Below are positions 905 through 34,727 of a stretch of DNA of 37,207 nucleotides, piece after piece. The position numbers and the translations under genes are program-made. The stretch covers positions 1 to 37,207 of the IMG/VR virus record IMGVR_UViG_3300031586_000012; one strand, given 5' to 3'. How positions within the stretch are numbered: position 1 is the stretch's first letter; each line of letters starts with the position of its first letter. The notes under the pieces are model-generated. The model was not told the origin of the DNA. It made no database searches and saw only the letters and a program-made list of their open reading frames with translations. Origin of the DNA: a virus.

Positions 905-1780
905 CTATGATGCTGTTCCTTCAAAACAACGCTCATTACCACTACTGTCTATGTAACAATAATGAGTGCCTAGCATTGGTGATTTTGTATTGATTGAAAT
1001 TTGGCTTGGCAGTTTGCCATTAAGTCCGGTTAGCGTGCCTTCTATGTATCGTTCATTGCCACTGGAATCTATATATCTTTGCTTCGTTTCTTCTACCCAT
1101 GGTTGACTTGCTATTTTACCAGTGGCACCCTCCAGTGTGCCTTCCTTTAACCTCTTAGAATAATCTGTACCTACATAAGCGAGTTTAGTTCCTTCTACCC
1201 AGATATAGCCGGCAGGACTTTCGCGTAGTGTTGAGATATCGTATTGGATACCAGCTGCCCCTGTAGGAGTACCTGTACAATTATAATCCGAACTATGAAC
1301 CCACAGTAGAACTGTGTATCCCTCACTGTTTATATGTGCGCTAGGGATGAGGAGGTAGTGGTATTTTCCGTCAACCAAATCAGCTATATTCTTGGATGCT
1401 ATGAGGTATTCTGCTGAGAATCGCCCTCGTATCCAGCCATATATCTCTGAACCGAAATCTGGGTCTGCCCCGTTCCCATTAAGGATATAAATCTGCCCAC
1501 TTGGGCTAGGTTCGCCCGAAGCCCAAACACGAACCACAACATCTTGGGTAATGCCCGTAGTATCATAAAAGGTGATACACCTTCTTATAGCACAGGGGTA
1601 TGGCCCAGCCCCATACCAAACCTGGGGAGCTCTATGAGCGCCATCTGGTTTAAATAAATCCTCTGTAAAAGCGCGTTCCCAGACCCACATCCATGTTTCC
1701 CAAACCGTCCATCCATAGGGCTGAATCAGAGTAAGATGTGCCGAGGCGTTTATGCTTACTTCAATCGGAAGTGTTGCCAT
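905..1780 (-). CDS. Putative tail/adsorption protein with C-terminal repeats
   Basis: A 291-residue beta-rich, Trp/Tyr/Gly-rich protein. Residues 1-200 look like a beta-sandwich of the kind found in phage receptor-binding or carbohydrate-binding proteins (no motif seen that names a family). The C-terminal 95 residues contain three imperfect copies of a roughly 30-residue unit with the core YIDSSGNER-x-x-EGT. It follows the hub-like tail gene by 6 bases with a GGAG ribosome site. The terminal position in the tail module and the repeated C-terminus suggest a fibre or receptor-binding role. No enzyme motif is visible. Confidence 0.6.
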   Translation of the reverse strand: MATLPIEVSINASAHLTLIQPYGWTVWETWMWVWERAFTEDLFKPDGAHRAPQVWYGAGPYPCAIRRCITFYDTTGITQDVVVRVWASGEPSPSGQIYILNGNGADPDFGSEIYGWIRGRFSAEYLIASKNIADLVDGKYHYLLIPSAHINSEGYTVLLWVHSSDYNCTGTPTGAAGIQYDISTLRESPAGYIWVEGTKLAYVGTDYSKRLKEGTLEGATGKIASQPWVEETKQRYIDSSGNERYIEGTLTGLNGKLPSQISINTKSPMLGTHYCYIDSSGNERCFEGTAS

Positions 1781-1786: not shown

Positions 1787-4180
1787 CTAGTCATACATAT
1801 CAGTCCCCACCGGGATTTTGAGCCGGGACTTGACGTAGACTCCATAGAATTGCTTGCTCGTGCTGCCTAGCCTTGTGACGTTGTTATTATATGGGAGAAC
1901 ATAATTACTATCTGGGTCAAGCCATATATCTCCACCAGGGCTCCCCACTGTTGCTAACAAAAGAGGATTGCCATCCATAGCTAGCATACCAAACTCGTAG
2001 GGGGAAATAGGAGAAACGTCAATGCGTCCAGCCTGGGTAGAATCGTGATAAAATCGCAAGACGCTGCCCCATAAACCAATCCCTATGTTATCTATCTTGA
2101 CTGCCCCATCACCAGCATATAGCTTCCCATCGGTGCCGATGTAAACCTGAACAGGAGTGCCAGCATCATAGTCATCTTTACTGGCAAAAGTTCTGAAGGC
2201 ATTGATTCCCTCACCGCCGTACAACGCTATTCCATACGTTGCGTCTAGGACTACCCCGGTTTCCTCATACCACAGTCCGTCCTTGACAGTCTTGGAAAGG
2301 AGAATATGCCCCGCTTGAATATCTGTATATTTAACGAGTCCATAAGTGCCAACCTGAACCTCATCTAAAACTATAAGTCCATTAGCTGTTAAAGCAGCCC
2401 GCTTCGTGCGAAGAATTACGACTCCCTTTTCCAAGTCAGCTAGGACACTACTTGATACCTCATCCCATGACGAGCCACTCCACATCTTTACTTTGTTCGG
2501 TGTATAGTTTGTATCAATCCAAATATCACCCGTAGTGGGGTCTGTTGGTGCTGATGTTGATTTCGTTAAATAGTTGTCTCCTTGATCGGGGGTTCTTAAT
2601 GTGTAGAGCGTATCTTCTTCAATATAAACTCCACTAGCATCAAGATGCAATCTCTGTTGTCTTGCATAATATTCCCCATCAGCAAGATTGTCTATCGTGT
2701 CCCCGATCTTGTCCAGGTCAATGTTACCTTCGGGGTCAATCCACACGAAATCAAGATTCTCAGCGATGATGTTCTCAGCATATAGGTCCTTAACCATCAA
2801 GCGCGAGAAGTAGTTTTCAAAATCATCGGCAGTTATATTCAGGTTTGCTAAAACCTTCCGGATATTCTGCCAGTTGCCAAAGGTAAAAGTCATTCGCCAC
2901 TCATTTTTACGGACATCATAGTAGCGAACTAATTTTCCGATATTCCCTATTCGGTAGTCGCTTTCTCTCGAATCCGTAACTTTTACATAGTCAAATACCT
3001 CAGCGCCCACATTCATCGGCACATCGGCAGCTCCGGCCTCGCACCACATCTGAGCCTTTGCCAGTATAGCTTCGGCTATTGCGGTGGCATGTTCGTCACT
3101 TTCCAGGTAGGTTTTCTTGTATTGTTGCTTCTTCAGTTCAGCAGGAAGAGAATCATAGCCATCATCTTTTGCGGTCCCGCTATATTGAGGATCATCCTCA
3201 TCCTGAGATTGAACTTTAATATAGCCCGGAATTACTATTCGGTTTCTCAGGGCTTTAGCAAAAAAAGGATGCCCGCTCTCCAGGCTGTATTCGTAATCAT
3301 AAGTCGTGCCTGAAGTCGTGGGCTTGAATATATGAATCTTGCCGTCATTCTTAACAACAGCGACATTAAGCGTATAGTCAAGAAGGCGGTTTATTGCCGA
3401 CCACCTATTATTCTTGGTATAAATCCTGAAGGCATCTTTGGGCCTATAATTATCGGCAAGTGTATCGTAGCCATCCTCCCATACTACCTCGTAAGCCTTG
3501 CAGAGATTAAAGGCAGATAAAGTCGCTCCGATTATAGCGTTTACCAGCGTCTTGACTGTATCGTTGGATCCCTCTGTCCATATCTCATAGTCCTCACCAT
3601 CAGCCATTATGTCTGCATCTAGCGTTAAGTTAGATTGCGAGTTGTATTCTGTAACATTTGCATAGGTATCATCCGTTGTATTATGGACGACTCTACCAAC
3701 ATCACTAGCCTTAAAATGGCTATTACCAGTATCTATCAGGTGGTTCGCGATTGTGGAAGTGGCTGTGCCCTCCTTTTCAAGCTGGGGCATACAATTATCA
3801 CCAGCCTCATCCATCTGCATTAGGTTTGCTATACCGATCATAGAGAGAGTGCAGGTTAATTTATTGGGATCGGAGTCAAACTCCTGTGCAATCACCCACA
3901 TTGGAGCACAAGCTGAATACTCATCGCCGGCTCTGGTTTTAGCACCATTGGACAAAACCCCCTCGAATCCCTTGAGGTCAATATCAGTCAATTCACCATC
4001 GCTATTATTCAGAACTATCTCAAGGGACTGAAGCGAACCGTCCTCTGTCTCCTTAATACTGAGTATCCTGGTATTCGTGTAGGTGTAGGAGCTCCCCCCC
4101 TTGGTGAGCTCAAGTTTTACCAGGGCATCAATAGAGTATGCCTCTTGTGCAGCCTTTAATGTGTCTGTTAGAGTCCTCAT
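1787..4180 (-). CDS. Tail hub-like protein fused to a fibre-like C-terminus
   Basis: A 797-residue protein. Roughly residues 1-450 have the composition and layout of phage tail hub/baseplate proteins (opening domain on ligand strands, then mixed alpha/beta, ending in EWRMTFTFGNW). A linker near residues 530-560 carries the collar-type pattern APTDPTTGDIWIDT...W-SGSSWDEV, and the C-terminus ends LGSTSKQFYGVYVKSRL, a motif common at the ends of tail-fibre shafts. The stop of the upstream gene (4182) is 1 base from its start. It probably links the tail tip to an adsorption domain. The exact family is uncertain. Confidence 0.6.
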   Translation of the reverse strand: MRTLTDTLKAAQEAYSIDALVKLELTKGGSSYTYTNTRILSIKETEDGSLQSLEIVLNNSDGELTDIDLKGFEGVLSNGAKTRAGDEYSACAPMWVIAQEFDSDPNKLTCTLSMIGIANLMQMDEAGDNCMPQLEKEGTATSTIANHLIDTGNSHFKASDVGRVVHNTTDDTYANVTEYNSQSNLTLDADIMADGEDYEIWTEGSNDTVKTLVNAIIGATLSAFNLCKAYEVVWEDGYDTLADNYRPKDAFRIYTKNNRWSAINRLLDYTLNVAVVKNDGKIHIFKPTTSGTTYDYEYSLESGHPFFAKALRNRIVIPGYIKVQSQDEDDPQYSGTAKDDGYDSLPAELKKQQYKKTYLESDEHATAIAEAILAKAQMWCEAGAADVPMNVGAEVFDYVKVTDSRESDYRIGNIGKLVRYYDVRKNEWRMTFTFGNWQNIRKVLANLNITADDFENYFSRLMVKDLYAENIIAENLDFVWIDPEGNIDLDKIGDTIDNLADGEYYARQQRLHLDASGVYIEEDTLYTLRTPDQGDNYLTKSTSAPTDPTTGDIWIDTNYTPNKVKMWSGSSWDEVSSSVLADLEKGVVILRTKRAALTANGLIVLDEVQVGTYGLVKYTDIQAGHILLSKTVKDGLWYEETGVVLDATYGIALYGGEGINAFRTFASKDDYDAGTPVQVYIGTDGKLYAGDGAVKIDNIGIGLWGSVLRFYHDSTQAGRIDVSPISPYEFGMLAMDGNPLLLATVGSPGGDIWLDPDSNYVLPYNNNVTRLGSTSKQFYGVYVKSRLKIPVGTDMYD

Positions 4181-4181: not shown

Positions 4182-4481
4182 TTATTCTTTTAGCTCAAAG
4201 CTCCCTTTACCGACTCCATACTTGGCGTTCTCTTCGGTGCCGTCCTGCCCCTTGCAGCGATACTTCCACCATTTCACCTTCGCATCAGCAGGCGGGGTAT
4301 AATAATAGACAAATTTGCCCTCCTCGCTTGGATCCATTGCTTCGTTATCTACCTGCTTTTCGCCATCGGGATCGGTAAGAGTGAGCTTAACCCCTTGATT
4401 CGGGCTGTAGAGCACTCCCGCTCTTTTGAAATAAGCCCAAATCTCTATAGTCCCTTCGCGGAAAAAAACTTCTGTTGTCAT
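4182..4481 (-). CDS. Small Ig-like/beta-sandwich tail protein
   Basis: A 99-residue protein whose strands and motifs (VKLTLTDPDG near residue 35, then GKFVYYYTPP) are typical of a single Ig-like or bacterial macroglobulin-type beta-sandwich. Its ATG overlaps the stop of the large repeat protein by 4 bases (ATGA at 4481-4478), so the two are translationally coupled. It is likely a virion accessory or decoration domain for the neighbouring tail proteins, judged by position and fold type only. Confidence 0.6.
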   Translation of the reverse strand: MTTEVFFREGTIEIWAYFKRAGVLYSPNQGVKLTLTDPDGEKQVDNEAMDPSEEGKFVYYYTPPADAKVKWWKYRCKGQDGTEENAKYGVGKGSFELKE

Positions 4482-7400
4482 TCCTCGCCTCCGGTTTTTG
4501 TTTTTACGGATACATCGTAATATGGCTTCGCTTCCATAGAAACTTCAAAGTAGGGCTTTGCCTCCATGGACACATCGAAGTAATTCCTGGTGAATAGCCT
4601 GATTAGAAATGTTTTTGCCTGGACAATAATGCCCGTGACTGTCAATCCCAGCAGCGCGACAGCGCTTCGCGTAATTGCGATTGTCCTACTACCAATACCC
4701 TTGAGCCCTAGCAGAGCAGTATCAGCTCTTGTGAAAGCCAATACACGGCTGCTAGTAGTCTTTAATCCTAACAAGGCTGTATTAGCTCTAGCCAGAGCCA
4801 ATGACCTCGTTCCCATAGCCACCAGTCCGAGATAGGCAATGCCAGTCCTGTAATAATGTTCAGCAGTATAATAGATGCCAGTAACTTTAAGCCCTAGATA
4901 TGCTAAGGCTGAACGACTCAAAGATATAGCTCTTGAACCTGTAACTGTTAAACCAAGATAGGCAATGCCAGTCCTGATGTAATGCTTGACGGTGGACATT
5001 ATGCCCGTGGCTTTCAGTCCTAGCAAAGCTACCTTAGCTCTAGTAATGCTTATAGTTCTATTGGCTGTAGTCTTCAGCCCAAGCATTGCAGTGTCCACTC
5101 TGGCAAGCGAGATTGACTTGTTAGCAGTAGTAAGCAATCCTAGCAATGCTGTCTTGCTACGACTCAGGTGTAATGCCCTTGAGCCTGTGCCAAGTAAACC
5201 GAGCAGCGCAATCTTGGAGCGGGTAATGGCTATTGCCCTTGAGCCTACAATTTTCAGCCCAAGCAAGGCAGTCTTGGAGCGAGTAAGTGCGACCGCTCTT
5301 GTGGCTGTGGTTTTCAAGCCTAGAAGAGCCGTGTTTGTCCTCGTATAACTACGAAATCTGCTGGCTATGCCCTTCAATCCCAATAAAGCAATATCCAGCC
5401 TGCTTAGAGCAAGTGCCCTGCTTCCAATACTCTTCAAACCCAGTAAAGCGGTATCGCTTCTACCAAGAACCAATGACCTTGAGCCAGTTGATAGGAGACC
5501 TAATAAGGCTGTTCCCACTCTTCCATAATGACCACTTATCAGGCATCCCCACTCCTCAAACATAAAGTCCCTAGTGCTGCTGGAAGACCAATTTTCCCCA
5601 CCATCAATGCTGTATTCAGCATTTCCACCACTATAAGTTGGAGAGCTATCGTCCATTCTCCATCCTACATGATTAGTACCATTACCATCTAAAGCTCTTA
5701 CTACAATGGCATACTTTGTGCTTCCAGATAAGCTATAGCCATCGCCAATTATAATTTCTCGCCACTCACCATCAGTATCAGTTGTTAAAGTATTGCCATT
5801 CGTAGTTCCAGAACAGAGGTCTTCACCAGTAGGATGTCCGTTTCCATCAGTGGCTTTTATGCTAACTGTAATTGTTCCTGGACTTAGTGTGCGATATATT
5901 TTCAATTTAACAGATATAATTTTATGTGATTCTGAGGGGGTAAATGTCTGTGCCTGCCAAAGGTCATCATGTATATAAAGAACAGCATCATCACCAGTTT
6001 TGTAATACTCACATTTCCTACACAATAAACTAATAGCCTTCAGCCCTAGCAGCGCCGTCTTCACCCTGCTGATGGCAATGCTCCTGCTGGCAGTTGCCTT
6101 GAGTCCAAGTAAAGCTGTCTTGGTTCTGAGATAAGAAGCTGCCCTTGTCGCAGTGGGAAGAAGTCCTAGAAGTGCTGTGTCAGTCCTGGCCAGAGCAAAG
6201 CCCCTTGACCCACTTCCCAGCAAGCCTAGAAGGGCCGTGCCTGAGCGTTCGTAGTGTTCTCCTGCTGTATAAGTAACTACCAGCTTGGGTTTATATCCTT
6301 CACCTTGTTCTGCATAGTAACCAATAGCGTAAGAACGCAGACTAGGGTCAGTAGCATCAGAGAAATCATTATTAGGTCTCGTTCCCAGTTTAGTGATGCT
6401 TGTCTTGGATATTGCTGCTCTGCCAGCAGCGTTCAAAGTGAAATCGTGATAGGCTGCACTCCCAATGAATGTTCCTAAATCGTATGCAGTATCAAGGAAC
6501 TTTGTCGTTCCAAATTGGTCATAGTCGGCTGCTATAACTGCCGTATTTGTGGCTGGGGTAGAAGCAACTACTTGAATATCTGCTGGGTATGTAGTTTCAT
6601 TATTAAGCCCTTGATTTTTAGAGTAAAGTGAGAAAACAGCAGCCGAAATCGTTGCACCATCGGGCAGTCCAGAGGTATCAAATAAGAAAGGACATCTTGA
6701 TATTGAATGAGTACCGCCCCCAGAACTGGGGTCTTCACCCTGGCATACAACATCAGATGCTCCTGAATCACCTGCTCCATCCCCTGTTGCTTTTGCCCTT
6801 TGAGTAGCCCATGCCACAGGAGTAGCTGGAGATACATAAGTTCTCCCATCAACACTTGTTGTTTCTTCGTGAGCATCGGGATAGAAGGTTTCAGGAGACT
6901 CGCATATTGTTAGAGGATAGCCAAAAGGCGGATTATCAAATATACTGGCAGGAATTAACTCCTCGCTATCACTGATTCCGTATTGCCCTAACCGAAGTTT
7001 GAAATCTCCCTGTTGGTCATAATGGATTCTTACTTCACCTTTAGGATTCTGCTCAAATACCCAAGTGCCAAGTATCCTACCCTCGATGAGCCTCAATCTC
7101 CGCTTGCAGATGCCGTAGTCCCATTCAAGGACATTGTTCTGGTAGTTCTCATTGGTGGGGTCAACCGCCAGTAATGTTTCCTTGCCACAGGATGCCTCTT
7201 TGCCGTCAAGGTAAAGTTGGGGAGTATATGTTAGATAATCGCCCTTTCGCTTCCCTGTAGGCTGGTCATTGATGCAGATTATGGTAACAGCCTTGCCTGA
7301 TACCTGAGCCTGAAACTGGTTTACCTTTGAGACATAGGTTGAGTCTTTCTTCTCCCAGCCAACTTCAACCTTAACGCCATCAGCATTGACCATCGGCAAA

Positions 7401-7600
7401 CCAGACACGACCATGAATCCTTTGTTAGATTTCAGGTCTCGGTAGAATTTGGCATAGGGTGAATGTCTCTTACCTAGACTACGAGGGGCATAGTCCTGTG
7501 TAAACTCAACATAGTCCTTGTCTATACCCTGCCTTACTAATGCAGATAGCAGAACAGGATCAGTAACTATCTTATTCGGGTCTATTACCTTTTCAGGCAT
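4478..7600 (-). CDS. Giant tandem-repeat tail/adsorption protein (20-residue TALLGL repeats)
   Basis: About 1,040 residues. The frame opens at TTG 7603, but ATG at 7600 has AGGAG with 5-base spacing. Residues 1-240 form a globular virion-type domain. About 250-440 resemble a jelly-roll (SRCPFLFDTSGLPDGATISA...KPKLVVTYT). Then come four copies of a 20-residue unit (TALLGLKxTxSRxxxxxRxx), a second beta-sandwich (QTFTPSESHKIISVKLKIY, about 525-680), and fifteen more copies. The end carries three 10-residue repeats (YFEVSMEAKP type). The repeat has invariant ALLGL or AYLGL and Arg about every 10 residues. The place among tail genes suggests a fibre or adsorption role. The repeat fold is unknown to me. 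Confidence 0.62.
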   Translation of the reverse strand: MPEKVIDPNKIVTDPVLLSALVRQGIDKDYVEFTQDYAPRSLGKRHSPYAKFYRDLKSNKGFMVVSGLPMVNADGVKVEVGWEKKDSTYVSKVNQFQAQVSGKAVTIICINDQPTGKRKGDYLTYTPQLYLDGKEASCGKETLLAVDPTNENYQNNVLEWDYGICKRRLRLIEGRILGTWVFEQNPKGEVRIHYDQQGDFKLRLGQYGISDSEELIPASIFDNPPFGYPLTICESPETFYPDAHEETTSVDGRTYVSPATPVAWATQRAKATGDGAGDSGASDVVCQGEDPSSGGGTHSISRCPFLFDTSGLPDGATISAAVFSLYSKNQGLNNETTYPADIQVVASTPATNTAVIAADYDQFGTTKFLDTAYDLGTFIGSAAYHDFTLNAAGRAAISKTSITKLGTRPNNDFSDATDPSLRSYAIGYYAEQGEGYKPKLVVTYTAGEHYERSGTALLGLLGSGSRGFALARTDTALLGLLPTATRAASYLRTKTALLGLKATASRSIAISRVKTALLGLKAISLLCRKCEYYKTGDDAVLYIHDDLWQAQTFTPSESHKIISVKLKIYRTLSPGTITVSIKATDGNGHPTGEDLCSGTTNGNTLTTDTDGEWREIIIGDGYSLSGSTKYAIVVRALDGNGTNHVGWRMDDSSPTYSGGNAEYSIDGGENWSSSSTRDFMFEEWGCLISGHYGRVGTALLGLLSTGSRSLVLGRSDTALLGLKSIGSRALALSRLDIALLGLKGIASRFRSYTRTNTALLGLKTTATRAVALTRSKTALLGLKIVGSRAIAITRSKIALLGLLGTGSRALHLSRSKTALLGLLTTANKSISLARVDTAMLGLKTTANRTISITRAKVALLGLKATGIMSTVKHYIRTGIAYLGLTVTGSRAISLSRSALAYLGLKVTGIYYTAEHYYRTGIAYLGLVAMGTRSLALARANTALLGLKTTSSRVLAFTRADTALLGLKGIGSRTIAITRSAVALLGLTVTGIIVQAKTFLIRLFTRNYFDVSMEAKPYFEVSMEAKPYYDVSVKTKTGGEE
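4600..5524 (-). repeat. 60-bp tandem repeat array, fifteen units (coding)
   Basis: Units of 60 bases (two to three of 66) each encode one TALLGL-type 20-mer; copies 5 to 19 of the protein. Units differ mainly at third positions and in the residue pairs before ALLGL (DT, KT, NT, GI, KV), so the array is old and under protein-level selection. Three of the four longer variant units end in a KHYIRT or EHYYRT-like segment or the final KTFLIR. Confidence 0.85.
6022..6245 (-). repeat. 60-bp tandem repeat array, four units (coding)
   Basis: Copies 1 to 4 of the 20-residue repeat, separated from the longer array by about 500 bases that encode a beta-sandwich domain. The fourth unit breaks off into CRKCEYYKTGDD, which leads into that domain. 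Confidence 0.8.
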
Positions 7601-9155: not shown

Positions 9156-10295
9156 CTATTCAATCAGCCGGCAGGCCAGCTCTTCGGTCAGTGTCTTAAC
9201 ACCAACCAGCATGTCAATGGACACGGTATCAATCTTCTTGTTCATGTCGTAGCCCATGACTACTCGGCAGGACACCCCTTTGTAGGTTTCCGTCGAAGCC
9301 GCAGCGCCACCCATAGGCGGAGCCAGAGGTGCACTGACCAGGGCAAAGGCGTTCCTGTGAAAAACGATGTTGTTGCCACCATTGGTATCAACTACCACTA
9401 TGGCACCGCCCGAAGCTGCTTTAGCAACAGCAGGATAGTGTGCTACTGCGGTCCCAGGAGTGGTTGCGATAGTTGCATCCTCTAGAAGCACATAAGTGCT
9501 AGTAGAGGAATCACTGTTGGTTATGGTGATAATATCACCCTTCTTTATAGTGCAGGTTGCACCAACAGCCACTATGGTCAGGACATCGCCTGATACAACA
9601 GCAGTCGCAGTATCTGAAGTGTCTATAGTGCCCTTTTCATGGGTGACGATGTTCTGATCCATATAAAAGTCCGTGCCGAAGATTCGGCCCAGGCTCGCAT
9701 TTTTCAGAGCATCGGTGTCCCCGCGCTTCTCAGCGTTCAGGAAGGACGGGACAACGATGTAGTTCGCCTTGCCGGTGGGAGACAACACGGCCACCCTGCT
9801 ATCCATAGGCACCTTGTTGATATTCAGTTGCTTTTCGATAGCAGCCATATCATCTAGTTTGTGTGCCTCGGTGTCCGTCTGCATAGCCACATAATAAGGG
9901 ATATTGACGTACAGCCCAGCCAGAAGTAAGTCGAGATACTGAGCATGTGCCCTCATAGCAGGCTGTATTACCTGCTCAGAGTAAGCTACGATGTCCAGGG
10001 TCCTCTGCTCGCTTGTTAGTTCGAAACTCACGTCAATGAGCTTGTCCAGCTTGACGGCCACGCTGCCTTCACTGATGTTCTGGAGCGTTACGCCCGAAGA
10101 TCTATCGAACAACTCCGCTGTGAACGTTGCAGGTTTGCGTACCGTGATGGTATCACCCATCTTGCGAAATTCCTTAGAGTAATCCCGATAAACGAGCCCG
10201 GCCAAGACCATGTTATTCTCCAGAGCCATCAAAGCCTCTTTAGCTATGATGGACGGAGTTAGTACAACATTGGTTGAAGATCCCCAAGTTGCCAT
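9156..10295 (-). CDS. Major capsid (coat) protein, P22 coat-like
   Basis: A 379-residue protein forming the icosahedral shell. The start (MATWGSSTNVVLTPSIIAKEAL) and the following GDTITVRKP and FELTSEQRTLDIVAYSEQVIQPAM patterns match the P22-type HK97-fold coat proteins. Around residues 220-290 there is a Thr/Val/Gly-rich insert (beta-barrel-like), as P22-like coats carry an inserted domain. AAGGAGG stands upstream of the ATG, consistent with the most abundant virion protein. The scaffold gene is immediately upstream, the usual order. The C-terminus ends CRLIE. Confidence 0.9.
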   Translation of the reverse strand: MATWGSSTNVVLTPSIIAKEALMALENNMVLAGLVYRDYSKEFRKMGDTITVRKPATFTAELFDRSSGVTLQNISEGSVAVKLDKLIDVSFELTSEQRTLDIVAYSEQVIQPAMRAHAQYLDLLLAGLYVNIPYYVAMQTDTEAHKLDDMAAIEKQLNINKVPMDSRVAVLSPTGKANYIVVPSFLNAEKRGDTDALKNASLGRIFGTDFYMDQNIVTHEKGTIDTSDTATAVVSGDVLTIVAVGATCTIKKGDIITITNSDSSTSTYVLLEDATIATTPGTAVAHYPAVAKAASGGAIVVVDTNGGNNIVFHRNAFALVSAPLAPPMGGAAASTETYKGVSCRVVMGYDMNKKIDTVSIDMLVGVKTLTEELACRLIE

Positions 10296-11173: not shown

Positions 11174-11515
11174 TTATGGGATTAAATCTTCTAGTCTATT
11201 TACTAATTCCTCGGTGGCTTCATATATTTCACCTGACGAAGCATGGCGATAACGCCCATTTTGCTCCAATCTGCTTACAAGTAAGTGTATCGCCTCATGC
11301 TTGGCAGTGCGCTTAATATCCTTGAAGGGTTTATCTTTGTCGGGCAGCTCACTGTTTAGTGTTACAGTAGCTACCATGTTACCTTGATCAACAGAAAGAG
11401 TGGCAAAATAACCCTCTTCTGGCTCATACTTGAAATAAACCTTATAGCCAGTTAAGCCAAATACCTTCTGCCATCTTTTGAACTCGCTTTGGAATAACTC
11501 AAAGTCTGCATCCAT
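11174..11515 (-). CDS. Metallopeptidase-like protein with HExxH motif
   Basis: A 113-residue protein with H73-E-A-I-H77, the zinc-binding and catalytic motif of gluzincin/SprT-like peptidases, and a later EIYEATEELV that could give the third ligand. The N-terminal half is a small alpha/beta unit. ATG at 11515 overlaps the stop of the giant virion gene (TGATG); a GTG at 11518 is the alternative. It lies between the ejection-type protein and the scaffold, where head maturation proteases often sit, but those are usually serine or ClpP-like, so a role in maturation is only a suggestion. Confidence 0.65.
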   Translation of the reverse strand: MDADFELFQSEFKRWQKVFGLTGYKVYFKYEPEEGYFATLSVDQGNMVATVTLNSELPDKDKPFKDIKRTAKHEAIHLLVSRLEQNGRYRHASSGEIYEATEELVNRLEDLIP

Positions 11516-14500
11516 CACTTAAATAGTTCCTTAAACCCCTCCACTTGTGCCAGCTCTTCCCAGGGAGTCAGTTCATGTTCAGCTTCAGGATTTCCCCTGT
11601 CACCCACAAGTTTAGATACTTTGCCAGTCAATAGCATCCATTGGTCAAGTTCAGGATATTTAGCCCTGAAATCTAATCTATGTTGTCCTTTATCTTCTTT
11701 TAGATATTCCTTGTACAAGTTCCATACTTCTTTTGTCGGTACTTTGCTGAAGTCCTTTGACTGATTCCCCTGCACTCCTAGCCACACATCCCGGTAGTAA
11801 TCTACATGGTCCATGAAGAACCACTCTTGCTCATAGCCAGCAGTGGGAAGTTCGTAATATTCCACATAGAGGTCTATGTATTTCTCGGGTACTCCCACAT
11901 CATAGGCTTGAACTCTGTATCGAGCTTCCTTGAAAGTCATGCCGCCCCTTTCAATGTCCTCAAGACCTGCCCTCATATTCTCAATAGCTTTCGGAGCCAT
12001 GCCGCCGGTATCATCCCATTTATCAAACTCGTCAAGGAATTGCTGGTAAATCTTATCCCTGGCCAACGGTTTCACTGTAGATTTATCTATAAGTGGGTGA
12101 TTCCCTATTTCCGAATCTGTATACTCTTTGTAGAAGTCTGGATTTTCTAATAGGTATCTCTCGCGCCAGCTTCCCCACAATGGCTGTGCCGAATACTCGA
12201 CAAATGCAGGCCAGTTGCTTTCGGAATAACCCTGGCTATAGGCTTCTTTTGTATAATATGCCTTGCCGAAGGTGGTCATATCTTCGTTTTCATCGAATAA
12301 CAGTCCATGTCTGGCCGTCGCCCTGTCGTCATCATCTGAAATATAATCGTCATTGTCTGGAGTATCGTCTCCATAAGCCTCATATAAATCGAACTGTTCC
12401 CTATTAGCAACTTGTAGTTCAAGCAAGGCTAAGGGGGTATCAGATAACTTTAGCCCACGCCATTCTGCGTAAGATTGGACTCCTGCTTCTTTAGCAGCAA
12501 TATCATCCTTGAGTAAAAGTAATTGAGCTTCCCAACTACCATGCTTACCTTCTGAAACAAAGTTTTCATAGGCAAAGTGTGTCTCTAAAGAGCCTTCAGG
12601 TGGTAGAGTCATTGGTGGTATGGCATCAGCAGGTATATCCAGTGTCTTGAGTAGCCCCTTAAATTGATTGTAGGCTTCAAGGGTGAGGAGCTTTGCCTTT
12701 TCACCTAAAGCTAAAGCTAACCGGGCATTATCCATCGGGTTAGCTTTCAGCCATTCGTCTCTGGGGTTAATCCTTAGCTCCGAATGGCTATCAAGGAAGG
12801 CATCCTTATCATCTGATTCAAGATATTTGACAAGCACCTCATATTGCTGCCTGCTTACATTCCCCAGATAGGCTTTAGGATAGAGTGTGTCAAATTCTTT
12901 TAATTGGGCAAGGTTGGTTATCCTTTCCCTAGCCTTCCACTGCTGATAGTAATTGACTATTGTATCGTCATTGTCTTCCGTGTTTATTTTATAGAGTGCA
13001 ATGTTCGGGAGTATATCAGCCTTTGACTGAGCTATTTCATATTCAGCCCACGCCTTGCTTTCCTTTGATGCTGCTGGGTTATCTAGAACATCCTGTGGCA
13101 AGACATTGCTATAAACATTCCCAATATCTCTGAACCAATCAATGGTAGTGTAGAGGTTTAACTCCCGTTCCGATAATGGTTTATCTTCTTGCCCCTCCTT
13201 GACTTCACCAAGTTTCAAGTTTAGGTCTTCCACCTTCTGCTCTGCATTCTTGGCAGGGGGTTGTAGTGCCCACTGGCTGAAGAGGAAATCCTTTATGTTA
13301 ATATCTTCTCCCTCTTGCAGCTTTGTCCTGATACCCTTTTCAACCTGAACCAGATACGGGGTAGGCCATCCGGTTATCTGTCCAGCCGCTTTCGCTAAAT
13401 ACTCTACAAGAGCCGCTACATCATCGAGGCTTATATCTTTATAAGGGTCTTGTCCCTGACCGATTAACTTCTTAGCCTTGAGAAAGATATTTCTCAAGTC
13501 ATCCGCCGTCTGTGCAACCGGACTGACTTGGTAATCAAATGGCTCGTTAGTCAGCCATCCCCAGATTGACTGAACCAACTGTCCACCAATCAGTATAAAA
13601 TTCAGCGGCCCAAGAATACCAGCCCTAGCCTGTCTTTCAGGCTTCCACTGGAAGGCATCGGCAATAAACTGAAACATCATAGGCAGAAGCACCCATGCCA
13701 AAAGGATAGTCCCTGCTGCCTTTGTCCTACTTCCTCTGCCATATTTGAAGTTGCGTAAATTGTCCCCAACCATTCTGAAGTATTTGTTTGGCTGGTTCTG
13801 GAACATAGTCATTAGCTTGAGCCATGATCCACCATTCTGAATAGCCGACAGTGTATCAATGCCAAAACTAGGTTGTGTTCTATTTGTAAGGTCTTCGGCA
13901 GCAACTATAGCCTCAGTCTGTGACAGTCCCTTATTTAGTCCATCTCTATATTTAGCCCACATACCTTGAGTGACTGCGAAGGTGTCACCAAGCCTAATTT
14001 GAAGCATAAACCAATTTTTTATACTTCCCCGACCAGCTATTTCTTTGTTTCCATGCTGTGCAAGAGCAGCCGCAATATCTCGTTCAAACCCCGCCTGTAT
14101 CCTCGCTCTGAATCCTTCGGAGTTCTTATAGAGAAACTTGAAATGGTCAATCGGTGATGTCCAGAAATTCGCAATACCGGAGACAAAACCCGTCACACCC
14201 ATCTCTTGATCGGAAACATAGGCGAACAGAGATGGTATCTGCTTCAATGCGATAACTGGCTTAATAGCCAGGATTGACCTAGTAAAGTTCCTTCTGAGCC
14301 AATCAGCGATCCTATTGGTAGTCGCTGTCTCAATGCCACCCCTTGCCATTTGGTTCATAAACTTATCAATTAACTGAACGATACCCCGCCCGTGATATTG
14401 CTCTATCGCCTGTTTTATCTCTGTGTTGCCAAAGACACGGCGCATATCCCTCATGGTGGTAGCCCACGCCTTGAAGTGCTCCATCTGTTCTATGTGGTTC

Positions 14501-17500
14501 GAGAGTATTTGCGTGGCTCCATTGAACTTGAGAGGTCGTATGTTCCTCTGCCTTGCCTTCAGACTACCATTGAGAACCGAGGCATATTGAGCGGCATCCT
14601 GAAAGGTTAAAATACTCTCCGTTATATCAGCCTCAAAATCCCGCCTGATAGGTGAATACCGAGGGTTATGAGGCATATCTACATTGTAAAGCTCCTGATA
14701 TATCGGGTTTATTGTTTTGTAATAATCCTCATAAAACTTGAAGAATGAATCTGTCAACTTCTTTTCCTCGGCAGTCAGGTTGTTCTCTATAGAATTCCTG
14801 AACTCCATTGACCAGCCCATGCCGGTAGTAAAGGTGTTATTAAGAGTCGGGTCTTGCATCTGCATATACTTGGCGAGCATCTCATTTCTGGTCATCTTGA
14901 TAGTAACTGTAGTAGCTCCAGGGTGATTAGCGATATAATCGGCAGTCAGTTCAAAGGTGCCGAGATTAACTTCCTCATCAAGTCCATTAAGAACTTGGTT
15001 AATAGCACGACCACCCTTGACCCCGAATACTTCACCAACCACATCCTTGACTTTGGCATAGGCTTCTTTAGTTCCAATGAACTGCCTATTGGTTGCACGG
15101 TGAACTTGAGATACAAACTTGCTAATTTCACTCTGGTAGGGTCCAGAGGTAGTATCGAACTTGCTTAGTTTGTCAGCCAGATTATCGATACCATACTGCC
15201 AGTTGACAAAGGTATCTACCCATCCGGGCTTGGCCTCCAGTCCCTTCCCTGGTACAGCCCCGATACCTGTCTTTAATCCCTTCCCGCCAGTAAGTATATT
15301 AGAAATATCTGCGCTAACAGCCTTGATTTTCTCATTAGCAATCTCCTGTTTTGCCTGGCGTTCAGACCTCCCTATGGCTTCAAGAGTCCTGATATAATTC
15401 AGTAGGTTAGCCAACTCCTCTGAAGACATACCATCTATGCCGGCGAAGTTAAGAGCTTCATTAGCTTTGAACATTTCCTCATAAGACAACTCCCCTGATT
15501 CGTATGCCCTGATATTCGTGACAATCTTCTCCCTGGCAGTATCTCTGTCAAGTTCCAGGTTGTGATTGAGAACATCAAATAGCCTCTGTGTCTCAGGTGT
15601 GAATTTACCTTTAAGGATATGATCTTTGATTTGCGCCCTTGCTTTCTTGAGTTCCGCTCTAATTTCAGTCTTGAGAACTTTCTGGGCATTGTTTTCAGCA
15701 AATTCCATAACACGTGTCATCAATACCGTCAACTTTGTATCCGTCTTAACTCTGGCAACCGCAGATATGAATTTACCCCTGGCCTCCATCGGGAGGTTCT
15801 CTTTCACAAATTTAGCCAATGCAGCCTTAGTCTCATCAGCAGTCTTCCGTTTGCTCCACCATTCCTGATACATCCTGCCAAGCCCCTCTAACTGCCGTCC
15901 GGTTTTGACCTCTATTGGCTCAACTGGCATCTCTACTTCTGGCATACCAGCTTCGGCTTTGGGGATTGTAACCTCTGGGGTAATAGCTTCAGGTGTAACT
16001 TCTTCAGGGACAATCTGCTGCTTCATGTGCTCAACAACAACCGCTTCCGCCTCCGTCTTCGGTTTAATCTGCTCAAAGGTGATTTCTTTCTCAACTCCTT
16101 TAGCAGCATCTTCAACTACCTTTTCCAGCTCGGGATTTTGCTCTACCACATTATCAAGTGCCTTTTGTGTGGCCACATCCTCTGACAATCCCTGAGAGAC
16201 AAAATCCTCTTTGCTTTTATCAAATTGAGCCTTCTGCTCTGAATTAAGCTGCGGAATTACCCTGTTCTGTATTCTGACGATTATATCTCCGCCAGCACCC
16301 ATGCCGAGACCGGCAATCGCACCGAGCGAAAAGACTAACTGCATATCGGGATCCTGTAGCATCTCTGCAAGCCCACGCTCATCACCCATAGCTTGCTTTA
16401 GAATCATCTCCTGATAAACTTCCTCTCCACCTTCAGTTAGCCCGGTGAAGAATAACTTACCGCCTATCTTAGCGGTAGTAACCAACCCTCTTGTCACCGC
16501 TCCGGCAGCCGCTTTGCCAACTGGTGTAGGCATAAATGCAACTGCAAGTTGGAGGGCATCCAATCCAGCTAATGTGAGATTCCTTCTGAATACCTCGTCA
16601 GCTACTTGTTCTGCCTCTTCATGCGAAAGCCCCCTTGCTCTAGCTTCATCATAGGCTCCACCAGCTTCCAATGCCGATTCAATAGGTCGGCTAAGGGCAG
16701 CACCGCCAACACCAGTTATGACTGCTCTACCCACAGCCCCTAACCCCACTCTGGCAGCTATTGAGCCGGCTAAACTATAAGCACCGAGAGCAGGAACTGC
16801 CAAAAGCATCAAGGTTGGCAACATCCTCACGCCATAAGTAGCATAAAACTGAGGATTAAATAGCTGCTTCCAAGTAAACTCATCAGGTTCAAATGGTATA
16901 GGCGCAGCCTGAACCTGCATATATTTTGCAAACGTAGTTATCTTCTCTCCTATTCCCTCCGCACCACACCACTTAAAAATACCTCCAACGTTGGCTACCA
17001 AATCGCCAACACCAGCAGTAAAGGTTCCCCATTTTCCTCGTTCTACTTCTCTGGCAGCCTCTGCCTCTACAATTAAAGCACTGGGATTGAAGTAATCGCT
17101 TAGTTGTTGCTCTGTAATATCGGGCCACAATTGTCTTACTAGCCTTTCTGTAGCCTCATTCCTACCCTCGCCAATAAGGGAAGCCCTTAATGCTTGGGGG
17201 TTATCACCAAAGTATTGCACCATCGTGTCAATGTTAGTCTCCGTTACTGGCTTTAGAGCATCTATCAAATTCTGGCGTAACTCAGGACTCCCAATAGTGG
17301 GTGTAAAGAGTTCAGTTAACCATTCCTCTGTCACGCCCTCATACATTGTTCTAAGAAGCATCTCTATCTCCTCAGTCCTGCCAATCTCAAAGATGTCTTG
17401 CAGGAAGGCTTCGGGCTGAGATTGAGCATAAGCCAAAACCTCTGCAATATCCTGCTGTGGAAACACAGCCCCGAATACTTCCTCAGTCTCTAACCTCTGC

Positions 17501-18039
17501 CTCTCTCTTAAATCTACCCAATCAGCAACGCCTAATTCACCACCACTAGTTTGATATTCCTGATATTGTTCCCTGCCTGCTTCAGTCAAGTTTTCGATGG
17601 TTAATTCTGTTTGATAAAACAATTCGTCTGGAACTAATCCGCCCGTAGGCTCACTTAACATAGCCCGCATATCAGCTTCTGAAAGCCTATCACCAGATGG
17701 TGAAATGTAATAATTATCTTCTGTTATCTCCCACTTCTGAGGGGTTATAATGCTAGAAGTTAAGCCTCCATTACCCTCTATCGGGCTTAATTTGAGCATC
17801 GCTCCCTCTTGAAGTCCCAAGCCCATCTGTGCAGCTTCAGCAGCAGTAAAAAACAATGGCTGTGTCGGGAAGGTAGTTATTAGCCGTCTCTGAGCGACAG
17901 CTTGCGTCAACTGAGGATACATCTCACGGACATCAGCCAGGGAAGTACCATATTGTGTCAATAGGCGTTCAATCTCTAAGTCCTTTGACTTGCGGAATTT
18001 CTTTAGCAGGTCCTCTTCGTTTAGTGTAAATCCGTTCAT
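11515..18039 (-). CDS. Giant internal virion/ejection-type protein
   Basis: About 2,174 residues, 17% of the genome. The frame opens at GTG 18099, but ATG at 18039 overlaps the stop of the preceding 46-codon gene (ATGA) and follows GAGGGG, so I chose it. Visible parts: an acidic N-terminal 350 residues; small-residue-rich hydrophobic helices at about 405-470 and 563-580; a long Lys/Glu coiled region (about 650-900); helical region to 1,440; a strong membrane segment (AAGTILLAWVLLPMMFQF, about 1,441-1,463); then many repeat-like DNxxxY/WxxY helices. The layout resembles the large internal virion proteins, with polyvalent-protein-type regions, that are ejected with DNA. No lysozyme or polymerase motif was found. 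Confidence 0.6.
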   Translation of the reverse strand: MNGFTLNEEDLLKKFRKSKDLEIERLLTQYGTSLADVREMYPQLTQAVAQRRLITTFPTQPLFFTAAEAAQMGLGLQEGAMLKLSPIEGNGGLTSSIITPQKWEITEDNYYISPSGDRLSEADMRAMLSEPTGGLVPDELFYQTELTIENLTEAGREQYQEYQTSGGELGVADWVDLRERQRLETEEVFGAVFPQQDIAEVLAYAQSQPEAFLQDIFEIGRTEEIEMLLRTMYEGVTEEWLTELFTPTIGSPELRQNLIDALKPVTETNIDTMVQYFGDNPQALRASLIGEGRNEATERLVRQLWPDITEQQLSDYFNPSALIVEAEAAREVERGKWGTFTAGVGDLVANVGGIFKWCGAEGIGEKITTFAKYMQVQAAPIPFEPDEFTWKQLFNPQFYATYGVRMLPTLMLLAVPALGAYSLAGSIAARVGLGAVGRAVITGVGGAALSRPIESALEAGGAYDEARARGLSHEEAEQVADEVFRRNLTLAGLDALQLAVAFMPTPVGKAAAGAVTRGLVTTAKIGGKLFFTGLTEGGEEVYQEMILKQAMGDERGLAEMLQDPDMQLVFSLGAIAGLGMGAGGDIIVRIQNRVIPQLNSEQKAQFDKSKEDFVSQGLSEDVATQKALDNVVEQNPELEKVVEDAAKGVEKEITFEQIKPKTEAEAVVVEHMKQQIVPEEVTPEAITPEVTIPKAEAGMPEVEMPVEPIEVKTGRQLEGLGRMYQEWWSKRKTADETKAALAKFVKENLPMEARGKFISAVARVKTDTKLTVLMTRVMEFAENNAQKVLKTEIRAELKKARAQIKDHILKGKFTPETQRLFDVLNHNLELDRDTAREKIVTNIRAYESGELSYEEMFKANEALNFAGIDGMSSEELANLLNYIRTLEAIGRSERQAKQEIANEKIKAVSADISNILTGGKGLKTGIGAVPGKGLEAKPGWVDTFVNWQYGIDNLADKLSKFDTTSGPYQSEISKFVSQVHRATNRQFIGTKEAYAKVKDVVGEVFGVKGGRAINQVLNGLDEEVNLGTFELTADYIANHPGATTVTIKMTRNEMLAKYMQMQDPTLNNTFTTGMGWSMEFRNSIENNLTAEEKKLTDSFFKFYEDYYKTINPIYQELYNVDMPHNPRYSPIRRDFEADITESILTFQDAAQYASVLNGSLKARQRNIRPLKFNGATQILSNHIEQMEHFKAWATTMRDMRRVFGNTEIKQAIEQYHGRGIVQLIDKFMNQMARGGIETATTNRIADWLRRNFTRSILAIKPVIALKQIPSLFAYVSDQEMGVTGFVSGIANFWTSPIDHFKFLYKNSEGFRARIQAGFERDIAAALAQHGNKEIAGRGSIKNWFMLQIRLGDTFAVTQGMWAKYRDGLNKGLSQTEAIVAAEDLTNRTQPSFGIDTLSAIQNGGSWLKLMTMFQNQPNKYFRMVGDNLRNFKYGRGSRTKAAGTILLAWVLLPMMFQFIADAFQWKPERQARAGILGPLNFILIGGQLVQSIWGWLTNEPFDYQVSPVAQTADDLRNIFLKAKKLIGQGQDPYKDISLDDVAALVEYLAKAAGQITGWPTPYLVQVEKGIRTKLQEGEDINIKDFLFSQWALQPPAKNAEQKVEDLNLKLGEVKEGQEDKPLSERELNLYTTIDWFRDIGNVYSNVLPQDVLDNPAASKESKAWAEYEIAQSKADILPNIALYKINTEDNDDTIVNYYQQWKARERITNLAQLKEFDTLYPKAYLGNVSRQQYEVLVKYLESDDKDAFLDSHSELRINPRDEWLKANPMDNARLALALGEKAKLLTLEAYNQFKGLLKTLDIPADAIPPMTLPPEGSLETHFAYENFVSEGKHGSWEAQLLLLKDDIAAKEAGVQSYAEWRGLKLSDTPLALLELQVANREQFDLYEAYGDDTPDNDDYISDDDDRATARHGLLFDENEDMTTFGKAYYTKEAYSQGYSESNWPAFVEYSAQPLWGSWRERYLLENPDFYKEYTDSEIGNHPLIDKSTVKPLARDKIYQQFLDEFDKWDDTGGMAPKAIENMRAGLEDIERGGMTFKEARYRVQAYDVGVPEKYIDLYVEYYELPTAGYEQEWFFMDHVDYYRDVWLGVQGNQSKDFSKVPTKEVWNLYKEYLKEDKGQHRLDFRAKYPELDQWMLLTGKVSKLVGDRGNPEAEHELTPWEELAQVEGFKELFK

Positions 18040-18176
18040 GCGACCCCTCGCTTGAAGAGTATATGCCAGCAGAGTCTCCATCTTGCCGATAATGGCCACT
18101 TCTTGACTGCACTCACATACTCAAGGAAGTTTCTACGGCTATATTTTCTAATCTTTTTTGATACCCTAGCGTTCAT
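18036..18176 (-). CDS. 46-residue basic microprotein
   Basis: Starts MNARVSKKIRKYSRRNFLEY and ends with a Trp-rich helix (RWRLCWHILFKRG). Its start overlaps the stop of the preceding small gene (TTAATG) and its stop overlaps the ATG of the giant gene (ATGA). From memory, small basic proteins with a similar basic start and an LPxxxRxxxAWxILFK-like end occur in phage head modules. Function unknown; a membrane- or RNA-binding amphipathic peptide is possible. Confidence 0.6.
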   Translation of the reverse strand: MNARVSKKIRKYSRRNFLEYVSAVKKWPLSARWRLCWHILFKRGVA

Positions 18177-18352
18177 TAACTTTTCCCTGTATTAAGCTGC
18201 CCTAGTTTGCCACCTGTTCGCAGCATTTCTAGGAAGTTCGGTCTAGTTAGCTTGGCTTTCTTTTCTTCCGCATCTTCTCCCCGAGCAGCATCTAAGAACG
18301 CCTTATCAACGTCTTCGGCTGTCCATTCCAAGTCCAATTTTCCCTTATTCAT
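18176..18352 (-). CDS. 58-residue hypothetical protein after portal
   Basis: A charged, helical protein beginning MNKGKLDLEWTAEDVDKAFL. It overlaps the end of the portal gene by 8 bases (ATGAATAA), so it is read by translational coupling. Its stop overlaps the start of the next microgene. No family recognised. Conserved position between portal and scaffold-type genes would fit an assembly factor. Confidence 0.6.
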   Translation of the reverse strand: MNKGKLDLEWTAEDVDKAFLDAARGEDAEEKKAKLTRPNFLEMLRTGGKLGQLNTGKS

Positions 18353-20111
18353 TTTCGGCCTCCTCAGTGGGTTCAGCAGCTAACGACCTAGTCAACATTG
18401 ACTTCTTTTGCCCATTCCCACCAGGTTTACTACTCTCTTCCTTAGGAACGGTCTTTTCGGGTTTCACCTTCACTTCCGCTTGAACTTCATCAAACTTGTT
18501 GGCTTCAGATGTTGTCAACTGCCCCATGGCGTTTCGCTGCTTCAGGATTGTAGTACCTCTTTGAGTCAGTAGAATAGACTCAATTTTATTCTGGATACTA
18601 GGTTTTTCACCTTGGATAGGTGGCTCAACTAGACTTCTTGCCCCCCTGTAGAGAAATGTGACCTCATCCACCTGTCCAACTAGCTGGGACTGGTATTTGA
18701 GTTCCTCTCCTTCGGGGTTCTTATCATGGAGATAATCCCGTCTTATAGTGTCCCTAGAATAGAATAGGCTTGCGTCCCTAGCCATTGCCAGGTTTGCTAT
18801 TCGGTCCTCTGCCGATTCAGTGAAAAAGCGATATTGAATGGTGTAATCACATTCCAGGTCGCCTGGTTTATACTCGTTCTCGCTGCCCTTTGGCCCCACG
18901 ATTATAGGCTGGCCTATCTGTATGCACTGTTTAATAATCATCCTGCTAAGTGCCTGGTAGAACATCGCCTTCGTATTCACACGAGGCAGGAATACATCAT
19001 TTCGTGAGCCCATGAGCTTAGCCATTGCCAGCGATGAAAGTGGGAAGTTCAATGTGCCGTAGTCAATCGCTGCCAGGCTTGCACGCTGTAAATCAGCTTC
19101 CAGGATGGAGTAGAACAATGTCGTGGCTCTCTTTATGTCGCTAACTGGCATCGCCTTAAACCCTCCACCCCTCTCCACAGCAAGAACAGCCCTTTGCTTG
19201 TATGGTGATTCCTTTGGCTTCTTGGCCTGCCCTGGCTTGGAAACCTCATACTGCAAAGCAGCGAAGAGAGCGTTTACATTGATGGTCTGTAGGATTGTTG
19301 CAGTCCTATTTTTCTCAGTCCAGAGTTCACGGTTAGCCCAAAGTATGCTTTCGCCCCTGTGCTCCACTGCATCTTTGCTGTAGAACATGGAGCCGGCATG
19401 GACAACCGAATAGACAAACGGCGGGTATCCGTAAGTGTTGGGATTCCTCCGAGCTACTTCCTTATTTACAAAGTTGGTATTCAATTCAGAGTTCCAATGG
19501 TCAACGACTTCGTTATCACTTCCCTCTATATTGGGAAGTGTGTCACCAGGCTTGCTATATTCGCGCTCAAGCTCCTCTTTAGTCTGAATAAACCACGGAG
19601 CTCCCCAAACCATTCCGTTTTCGCCCAATTCTGGAGCAAAGAACCGAGTATCCAAGGGAGTAACATCTGGCACAAGCACGCCATCTTCTCCTATCCTTAG
19701 ACAAGGACGGGCAGCCACATGACCTCGAATCATTATTTGTTCATCTGTGAAAGCCCCCAATCCCCATATACCCTTGTTCTCAAGCCATTCGTCTATCATG
19801 TAGTAAAGGTCGGAAAGGAATTGCTCAATCAAGGTTGTTTGTTTGTCGCTTAACTTGCGCCCTTCAATAACAGCCTGCATGGTGGCTCCGCCTAATATAG
19901 ATATTGCTTTAACAGCATAGTTAAGGCAATCGTTCAGCGTGACATTGGCTACGTCTTCCATTTCCTTGTTAGTGCTATCCAGCCTCATCATCTTGTAGGG
20001 CTTCAGGAAGTAAAGGGCTTCATCTACATCTTGGCGTTCATGTATGGGCTTCAGGCTTTCCCGCTTTGCATCAAATGCCTTATAGTCCTGATCTTGATTA
20101 TCTTCTGCCAT
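18345..20111 (-). CDS. Portal protein
   Basis: A 588-residue protein forming the dodecameric DNA channel at the capsid vertex. Seen: a long N-terminal helix region, a middle with PPFVYSVVHAGSMFYSKD and a stretch around residues 340-400 (LDYGTLNFPLSSLA-type) of the kind found in podoviral head-tail connector portals, and a charged, Pro/Lys-rich tail. Start at ATG 20111 (AAGGAG, 5-base spacing) rather than GTG 20117. It lies after terminase and a holin-like gene and upstream of scaffold and coat, the standard order. Family assignment is by similarity of pattern and synteny. Confidence 0.8.
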   Translation of the reverse strand: MAEDNQDQDYKAFDAKRESLKPIHERQDVDEALYFLKPYKMMRLDSTNKEMEDVANVTLNDCLNYAVKAISILGGATMQAVIEGRKLSDKQTTLIEQFLSDLYYMIDEWLENKGIWGLGAFTDEQIMIRGHVAARPCLRIGEDGVLVPDVTPLDTRFFAPELGENGMVWGAPWFIQTKEELEREYSKPGDTLPNIEGSDNEVVDHWNSELNTNFVNKEVARRNPNTYGYPPFVYSVVHAGSMFYSKDAVEHRGESILWANRELWTEKNRTATILQTINVNALFAALQYEVSKPGQAKKPKESPYKQRAVLAVERGGGFKAMPVSDIKRATTLFYSILEADLQRASLAAIDYGTLNFPLSSLAMAKLMGSRNDVFLPRVNTKAMFYQALSRMIIKQCIQIGQPIIVGPKGSENEYKPGDLECDYTIQYRFFTESAEDRIANLAMARDASLFYSRDTIRRDYLHDKNPEGEELKYQSQLVGQVDEVTFLYRGARSLVEPPIQGEKPSIQNKIESILLTQRGTTILKQRNAMGQLTTSEANKFDEVQAEVKVKPEKTVPKEESSKPGGNGQKKSMLTRSLAAEPTEEAENE

Positions 20112-20120
20112 ATTCACTCC

Positions 20121-29767: not shown

Positions 29768-30457
29768 TTAGCCTCCTAAATAAACCGGTTTGCCTGTTAT
29801 TTCCTGCACCTTCCGCTTGAACATATCTGCATCAGAATTATTACCACTCAGATGGAGCAGGTGTATCTCTTCGACCTTACTCAAATCGTTTGCCCGGAGC
29901 ATCCCAACTAGCGTCTCCAGGCTCATGTGATCCTGGAGAATCGACCGCCTTAGATCCGATGAAGGGGTGTTATCCTTGAGTAGAGGCAAGCTGTAATTCG
30001 CCTCAATCATAAGATGCGTTAGCCCTTCAAATCTGTGGGCAATATAAGCCGTATCAGTGGCGAAAAGAAGTTTCTCGTGGGATTGGTTAGCCATTAGAAA
30101 ACCAAGGGGCTCAGCAGCGCTGTGGTGCAGCTGGAAGGGTTTTATCGCCCAGGTGCCGATATGGAATTGCGTCAATGCCTCAATGATGTGTAACCTATGC
30201 CCCTGTAGTCTAAGCGCCTCAGCCGTCCCCTTGCTCATGTAACAGTCTATGCCTGCCCTCATAATTTCATGCGCTGCCTTTGCGTGGTCTTGATGTTCGT
30301 GCGAGATAAGGCAGCCGGCCAGCCGGGATACTTCAAAGTTTAAGCCTTGCTGAATGAGGCGAAATGGAATACCGGCCTCCAGGAGCAACGGCGTTTTGCC
30401 ATCGCTCACAAAGTAAGCGTTACCACTGCTCCCGGAAGCCAGTATTTTTATCTCCAT
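29768..30457 (-). CDS. MBL-fold metallohydrolase (YycJ/WalJ-like)
   Basis: A 229-residue metallo-beta-lactamase-fold protein: ILASGSSGNAYFV at the start, H53-E-H-Q-D-H58 (HxHxDH dinuclear metal motif), LLFATDTAY with the third-site Asp near residue 140, and LLHLSGNNSD near the end. Related cellular proteins (YycJ/WalJ) have been proposed to act as DNA exonucleases. In phages this gene often stands beside recT and an SMC-like ATPase, so it may supply the end-processing nuclease. ATG at 30457 follows the methyltransferase stop by 1 base; the frame is open much further upstream. Confidence 0.85.
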   Translation of the reverse strand: MEIKILASGSSGNAYFVSDGKTPLLLEAGIPFRLIQQGLNFEVSRLAGCLISHEHQDHAKAAHEIMRAGIDCYMSKGTAEALRLQGHRLHIIEALTQFHIGTWAIKPFQLHHSAAEPLGFLMANQSHEKLLFATDTAYIAHRFEGLTHLMIEANYSLPLLKDNTPSSDLRRSILQDHMSLETLVGMLRANDLSKVEEIHLLHLSGNNSDADMFKRKVQEITGKPVYLGG

Positions 30458-30458
30458 G

Positions 30459-30989: not shown

Positions 30990-31024
30990 AGAGTATTACC
31001 CTCTCTTGATACTATGTTTTCATC

Positions 31025-32451: not shown

Positions 32452-32469
32452 CTGGTTCTTCCTTTTTTA

Positions 32470-32643
32470 TTACTCCTTTGTCTCGCCTGGTAGTAGTTCA
32501 GGGTTGGATACCTGGACATACTTCAGGGCTTCGATGCCTAGCTTAAGGGCTTGTTGCCCTGGAAAATTGTCCTCCAGATTGAGTCCTGCCTTGCGGTCAT
32601 CATAAATAGCTTCTAATAATCTAATAGCTTCTTCTGATGTCAT
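32470..32643 (-). CDS. 57-residue acidic microprotein
   Basis: MTSEEAIRLLEAIYDDRKAG... a helical, acidic protein. Its ATG overlaps the stop of the ATPase gene (ATGA at 32643-32640). It fits the gap between that gene and the next exactly, leaving 18 bases. Not recognised. Confidence 0.65.
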   Translation of the reverse strand: MTSEEAIRLLEAIYDDRKAGLNLEDNFPGQQALKLGIEALKYVQVSNPELLPGETKE

Positions 32644-34726: not shown

Positions 34727-34727
34727 T

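Follow-up and report, generated by a model that had tools for sequence, protein, structure and literature searches.

What does a phage do with a late protein built around nineteen copies of a 20-residue TALLGL unit? The question is raised by the window analysed here, a 37,207-base IMG/VR virus record (IMGVR_UViG_3300031586_000012) with its late genes on the minus strand, in which a P22-type capsid gene is followed by a 195-aa gene in adaptor position, genes for 87 and 128 aa, the repeat protein, and genes for 99, 797 and 291 aa (Table 1). We consider it probable that the repeat protein serves the virion as a structural arm, consisting of a beta stalk that is anchored C-terminally at the tail tip and carries exchangeable adhesion modules at its N-terminus; that it occurs in virions, how it is oriented, its adhesive role, its oligomeric state and its fold are what we infer.

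Gene, repeat unit and domain layout

The start proposed in the preliminary description, an ATG at 7600 with AGGAG ahead of it, was retained, while the ORF program had chosen the TTG one codon 5' (7603), so that TTG-based residue numbers run one higher. The stop codon overlaps the start of the next gene (ATGA). Counting of xA[LYM]LGL motifs in the protein returned the nineteen units described earlier; that description had, however, overlooked a 136-residue choice-of-anchor R domain inside the array, which splits the units into blocks of four and fifteen. Successive units are spaced by 20, 20, 20, (182), eight times 20, 22, 20, 22, 20, 20 and 20 residues, i.e. the period is 20 with two 22-residue units as exceptions, and their consensus reads R-x-x-[TIV]-A-[LYM]-L-G-L-K-x-T-[GA]-[ST]-R-x5. 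All nineteen have invariant residues at motif positions 2 (A), 4 (L), 5 (G) and 6 (L), together with an invariant arginine three residues ahead of the motif; mean residue agreement between units is 48%. Self-identity at lag 20 across residues 695-1000 amounted to 131, whereas 2,000 shuffles gave no value above 56 at any lag. The arginine said to recur about every ten residues holds as a tendency, with R at position −3 in 88% and R or K at +11 in 86% of 237 units.

Table 1. Features of the window, all on the minus strand.
Feature	Coordinates	Family match or remark
291-aa protein	905..1780	83% identical in siphovirus L002, which shares the array
797-aa protein, probable tail hub/fibre	1787..4180	
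99-aa protein	4182..4481	weakly MG2/Ig-like
Repeat-stalk protein, 1,040 aa	4478..7600	
C-terminal end segment	4481..4609	three copies of a 10-residue motif
Second repeat block, units 5-19	4610..5521	period 20, two 22-residue units
Choice-of-anchor R domain, inserted between repeat blocks	5558..5965	NCBIfam NF041539, E 3e-8
First repeat block, units 1-4	6038..6247	unit 4 shortened
DNRLRE-like domain, residues about 305-443	6272..6688	NCBIfam, below cutoff
N-terminal region, residues about 1-304	6689..7600	no family match
128-aa "MAER" protein, named from its first residues	7664..8050	no family match
Major capsid protein	9156..10295	P22 coat family
2,194-aa protein, between portal-position ORF and capsid genes	11515-18099	phrog_9880, phrog_22978
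ORF in portal position	18345-20117	no family match
Terminase	20359-21648	

At the DNA level, 28.2% of codons were shared among 1,657 pairs of codons for identical residues, compared with 26.7% expected from codon usage. Since codon sharing at identical residues is thus only at chance level, synonymous sites between units are saturated, which indicates that the units are old and are held by selection on the protein, in line with the synonymous drift noted earlier.

The 306-residue block of the array contains 43 lysines and arginines and five aspartates and glutamates (net +38), while the domains flanking it are acidic (net charge −14 and −10). This composition bears on the suggestion that the hydrophobic TALLGL segments form a membrane-insertion or envelope-penetration device that enters the host membrane during DNA entry. 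Hydrophobic LLGL runs and a basic charge as high as that of membrane-active peptides would suit such a role, but Arg or Lys recurs about every ten residues and the longest charge-free stretch spans 17 residues, with no uncharged stretch of 18 found in the array. Arrays of 8-45 units interrupted by folded domains are moreover better suited to a spacer than to a pore, and the low-confidence AlphaFold model described below is all beta. We therefore do not uphold membrane insertion and regard it as highly improbable.

Among the attached domains, the choice-of-anchor R domain belongs to its family, scoring 33.7 bits against a curated cutoff of 30 over residues 547-682 in TTG numbering (about 546-681 from the ATG); the match is limited to this segment, with the repeat outside it, and the domain is 60% identical to an insert within the array of a relative, L274. 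The DNRLRE-like domain shows a resemblance only (19.3 bits against a cutoff of 34); BLAST relates it to the insert that interrupts the L266 array. The end segment repeats a 10-residue motif as YFDVSM, YFEVSM and YYDVSV.

An unnamed repeat family in uncultured phages

Relatives were collected by strict-pattern and protein searches of IMG/VR, a looser pattern being swamped by chance matches, and units were called by scoring with a unit matrix. In total, 313 units were found in 17 uncultured-virus contigs including the window, i.e. in at least 16 besides it, so the repeat is no isolated oddity but a widespread mosaic module. Spacings across these contigs were 20 (256 times), 22 (17), 21 (13) and 24 (once), and each long array is made of 8 to 45 units. 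The array occurs in both P22-like and siphovirus backgrounds: the P22-type capsid family was matched in three contigs besides the window, one of them weakly, and a tape-measure family in three array-bearing contigs. One relative is a 1,962-aa protein of L274 (2897-8782, minus strand) with 32 units and three inserts in its array.

The array gene travels with the 128-aa gene, which lies just upstream of it in every contig that reaches that far and whose product is 60-93% identical among relatives. Of the 16 records searched first, window included, 11 contain it; the five records lacking it are short fragments or carry either the divergent array of L003 or the unrelated one of L005. A search with the 128-aa alignment brought in five more contigs, three with the array and two whose sequence stops inside the gene or shortly after it.

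No family covering the repeat unit was found in Pfam, PHROG, NCBIfam or PDB. With the full protein, Pfam returned nothing except BNR below cutoff at residues 664-673, and with 60-mers of the array only unrelated families at E 0.02-0.05; the TPR, ankyrin, HEAT, pentapeptide and Hep_Hag models were not matched, in agreement with the preliminary view that no common solenoid fits. Searches of PDB chains with the array, by phmmer and by profile, gave no matches to E 1 and E 5, and tblastn found no match to the repeat in 50,697 phage records or in 72,556 plasmids. Full-text literature searches likewise revealed no paper on the repeat. These results led to the conclusion that it is an unnamed family which recurs in uncultured phages with at least two head/tail types and is absent from protein family libraries and from the roughly 50,700 catalogued phage records.

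AlphaFold2 modelling of eight units from 37 aligned sequences gave an all-beta arrangement with about two strands per unit at a mean pLDDT of 43, which makes the model too poor to show a stalk. As the 128-aa neighbour, also modelled from a shallow alignment, scored equally low (41), the pLDDT says little about the fold of the array, and shallow alignments may be the cause. Covariation between successive units at positions 9-29 and 15-35 hints at stacking, albeit confounded by common descent. If the low pLDDT throughout is taken at face value, and considering that repeats often serve as linkers, the units might be a disordered or loose connection that joins functional domains without a defined fold of its own. 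We regard this as quite unlikely, because L, G, A and R stay fixed while synonymous sites are saturated, the 20-residue spacing is kept across 17 contigs, and the composition is rich in the order-promoting residues Leu, Val and Ile; the low confidence itself is matched by that of the neighbour.

Exchangeable ends and proposed position on the virion

The regions preceding the first unit differ between relatives and include the DNRLRE-like domain, DUF2341 with a weak fibronectin III match (L036/L275), propeller-like regions (L266 and, by eye, L280 and L281), a trypsin-like region (by eye, L274) and two unnamed modules. In L274 the N-terminus looks by eye like a protease of the trypsin type (SNNHVFAN...GGDSGS), and a propeller-like region comes after it. 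A module of MAFTART type is shared at 56-62% identity by L251/L288 and L259, and one of MRVIYPP type at 52% by L002 and L266. N-terminal modules thereby cross phage types, linking L251 and L260/L288, which have P22-type capsids, with the siphovirus L259, and the siphovirus L002 with L266, which has another gene order. C-terminal ends, in contrast, group with phage type: YR/YHxIKV-type motifs occur mostly with P22-like gene orders, the L276 group has SRAYALGKS-type ends, and L002 and L259, the Dit/Tal siphoviruses, have a YTIEVRN domain.

The C-terminal ends in L002 and L259 correspond to the N-terminal part of the Tal/Prophage_tail protein (PF06605; phrog_4311, phrog_22322). Over its last ~70 residues, the array protein aligns with the starts of tail profiles, namely positions 6-71 of phrog_4311 (E 1e-5, L259) and 18-73 of phrog_22322 (E 8e-4 to 3e-3), while the gene that follows matches later parts (phrog_4311 182-359, phrog_22322 153-353) and PF06605 itself at 1e-32. 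In L259, tape-measure and Dit genes lie upstream of the array. In both phages the tail hub (Tal) is split: the stalk ends in its first domain, and the remainder is encoded by the next gene. The window departs from this arrangement in that its array ends in the 10-residue-motif segment and is followed by a separate Ig-like gene; in L274 and L250 the array end is continuous with a segment similar to this 99-aa protein. The 797-aa protein shares only its C-terminal domain (~170 aa) with the Tal-like proteins, being homologous there to the C-termini of the Prophage_tail proteins of L002 and L259. The array is thus encoded among, next to or fused with hub genes in L002, L259 and the window, with L276 as the exception, and the earlier placement among tail genes is confirmed by a late structural operon beside tail genes and by the hub fusion in the siphovirus relatives. 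On the basis of the hub-domain fusion at the C-terminus, together with N-terminal modules that swap while C-terminal ends track phage type, the C-terminus would sit on the virion and the N-terminus would point outward.

The L276 group argues against a tail-tip position. In L276 the module has the capsid gene on one side and the connector genes on the other, and the 128-aa gene of L289 and L292 occupies the same site near the capsid gene, making a head or neck position possible for this group. The protein could accordingly be a capsid decoration, i.e. a head or neck fibre extending from the head or connector, with which the particle would hold on to cells or particles. The P22-like phages, in which the array gene comes after the capsid and the 195-aa adaptor-position gene, would also be compatible with this idea. 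For the family as a whole we nevertheless consider it unlikely, given that in L002 and L259 the array, located between Dit and the remainder of Tal, is fused to the hub's N-terminal domain, and that the P22-like array stands immediately ahead of a protein which has a domain in common with Tal-like proteins.

Secreted surface proteins of bacteria often contain choice-of-anchor and DNRLRE-type domains, and the presence of such domains in the window protein could point to a cell-surface adhesin expressed during lysogeny (a moron) rather than to a virion part. A hydrophobic signal-like segment was, however, looked for in the first 60 residues and none was found, which makes Sec export unlikely. 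The location in the late operon, the ATGA overlap with the next structural gene and the fusion of relatives to a tail-hub domain speak against this alternative as well, and we give it very little credence.

The favoured reading thus remains the fibre or adhesive role raised in the preliminary description, based on tail-gene context and on the tail-hub fusion in siphovirus relatives. In the arm proposed here, the 20-residue units would build a rigid stalk that is all beta, positively charged and variable in length. The stalk would be attached to the tail tip by its C-terminal end, either beside the tail hub protein or as a fusion with it. The N-terminal end and the domains within the array would display exchangeable beta-sandwich, beta-propeller or enzyme-like modules, which would contact host surface glycans or proteins, while the basic stalk may add a non-specific grip on the anionic envelope. 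Length and content would change by recombination between units. It is the character of the attached domains that suggests a host-binding role for the array.

As for the virus itself, no phrog_991-type tape-measure protein was found in the window and the closest terminases are those of the Paenibacillus phages vB_PlaP_API480 and SV21, for which reasons it is probably a short-tailed phage. The 2,194-aa protein matches phrog_9880, of unknown function, at E 5e-25, as well as phrog_22978.

Array exchange and comparison with known systems

The array of a siphovirus, L278 (IMGVR_UViG_3300031643_000004), shares 98-99% DNA identity with that of the window, and the adjoining MAER gene 81%. Early genes (window 29772-36746) are 87-99.6% identical in DNA, whereas head and tail genes differ, pointing to a common host and module exchange. 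The two arrays differ by 763 bp, through which the window has the choice-of-anchor R domain and about five units in addition, and the junction in L278 falls exactly within AAGACTGCCTTGCTTGGGCTGAAA, a run of KTALLGLK codons. This difference is what recombination between units would leave, gain and loss not being distinguished. The array moves as a unit.

These observations allow a wider proposal, which we put forward only tentatively: a new beta repeat fold would serve as a general, C-terminally anchored display stalk across unrelated phage architectures, with host-range modules swapped at the free N-terminus and within the array, length tuned by recombination in the TALLGLK codons, and the 128-aa protein required as a dedicated partner. 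If true, this would represent a receptor-binding arm of reversed polarity (C-terminus on the virion, N-terminus outward), whose length and head domains are exchanged by recombination within repeats, and a new beta repeat scaffold with a structure solvable from a fragment of 100-200 residues. What is new is the repeat family; the type of device, a modular phage adhesion arm, is already known, and the polarity we infer for it is unusual.

By analogy, the array may be compared with the shafts of phage and adenovirus fibres (triple beta-spiral, triple beta-helix), in which repeated beta units form a length-variable stalk beside receptor-binding modules. Triple beta-spirals use units of ~15 residues, compared with 20 here, and no PDB sequence was matched. 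The motif also resembles the SVAIG motif of YadA-type head repeats (Hep_Hag), which are likewise short beta units; these, however, measure 14 residues, and the array matches neither Pfam nor the YadA anchor.

The array of L003 (R-x-[SA]-x-[VI]-[IL]-[IVL]-G...) is a divergent case with a choice-of-anchor R-like domain, units of ~20 residues and a YRDIKV-type end; its TALLGL motif is largely lost and its match to the unit HMM is weak (E 4e-4, full sequence). The looser 20-21-residue arrays of L269 (GTSALGLASTGTARKAAPQ), L256, L264 and L265 are not counted as relatives, being unmatched by the unit HMM at E 0.01, and are possibly convergent or distant cousins. In L005 (7992-10403), a choice-of-anchor R-like domain is followed by a wholly different array of SLLLRKSTYxDL-type units, which implies that in other phages this place is taken by other repeat stalks.

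Neither the array profile, searched against 393 genomes from the class of G001 (Dehalococcoidales), nor the 128-aa protein, searched against 400 genomes from the phylum of G002 (Chloroflexi), found a match, results which carry little weight without a positive control; a siphovirus accessory gene matched three of 148 genomes, too weak a signal to name a host. In L281, an integrase-like ORF at the contig edge (15096-16103, minus strand) begins with the residues VVGSNPISST, which read as a translated tRNA T-arm and suggest an attachment site in a tRNA gene. Finally, L280 (11354-11623) and L281 (11120-11527) each carry a second short array, of three and four TALLGL units respectively, encoded by a small ORF of its own that lies downstream of the gene for the main repeat protein.
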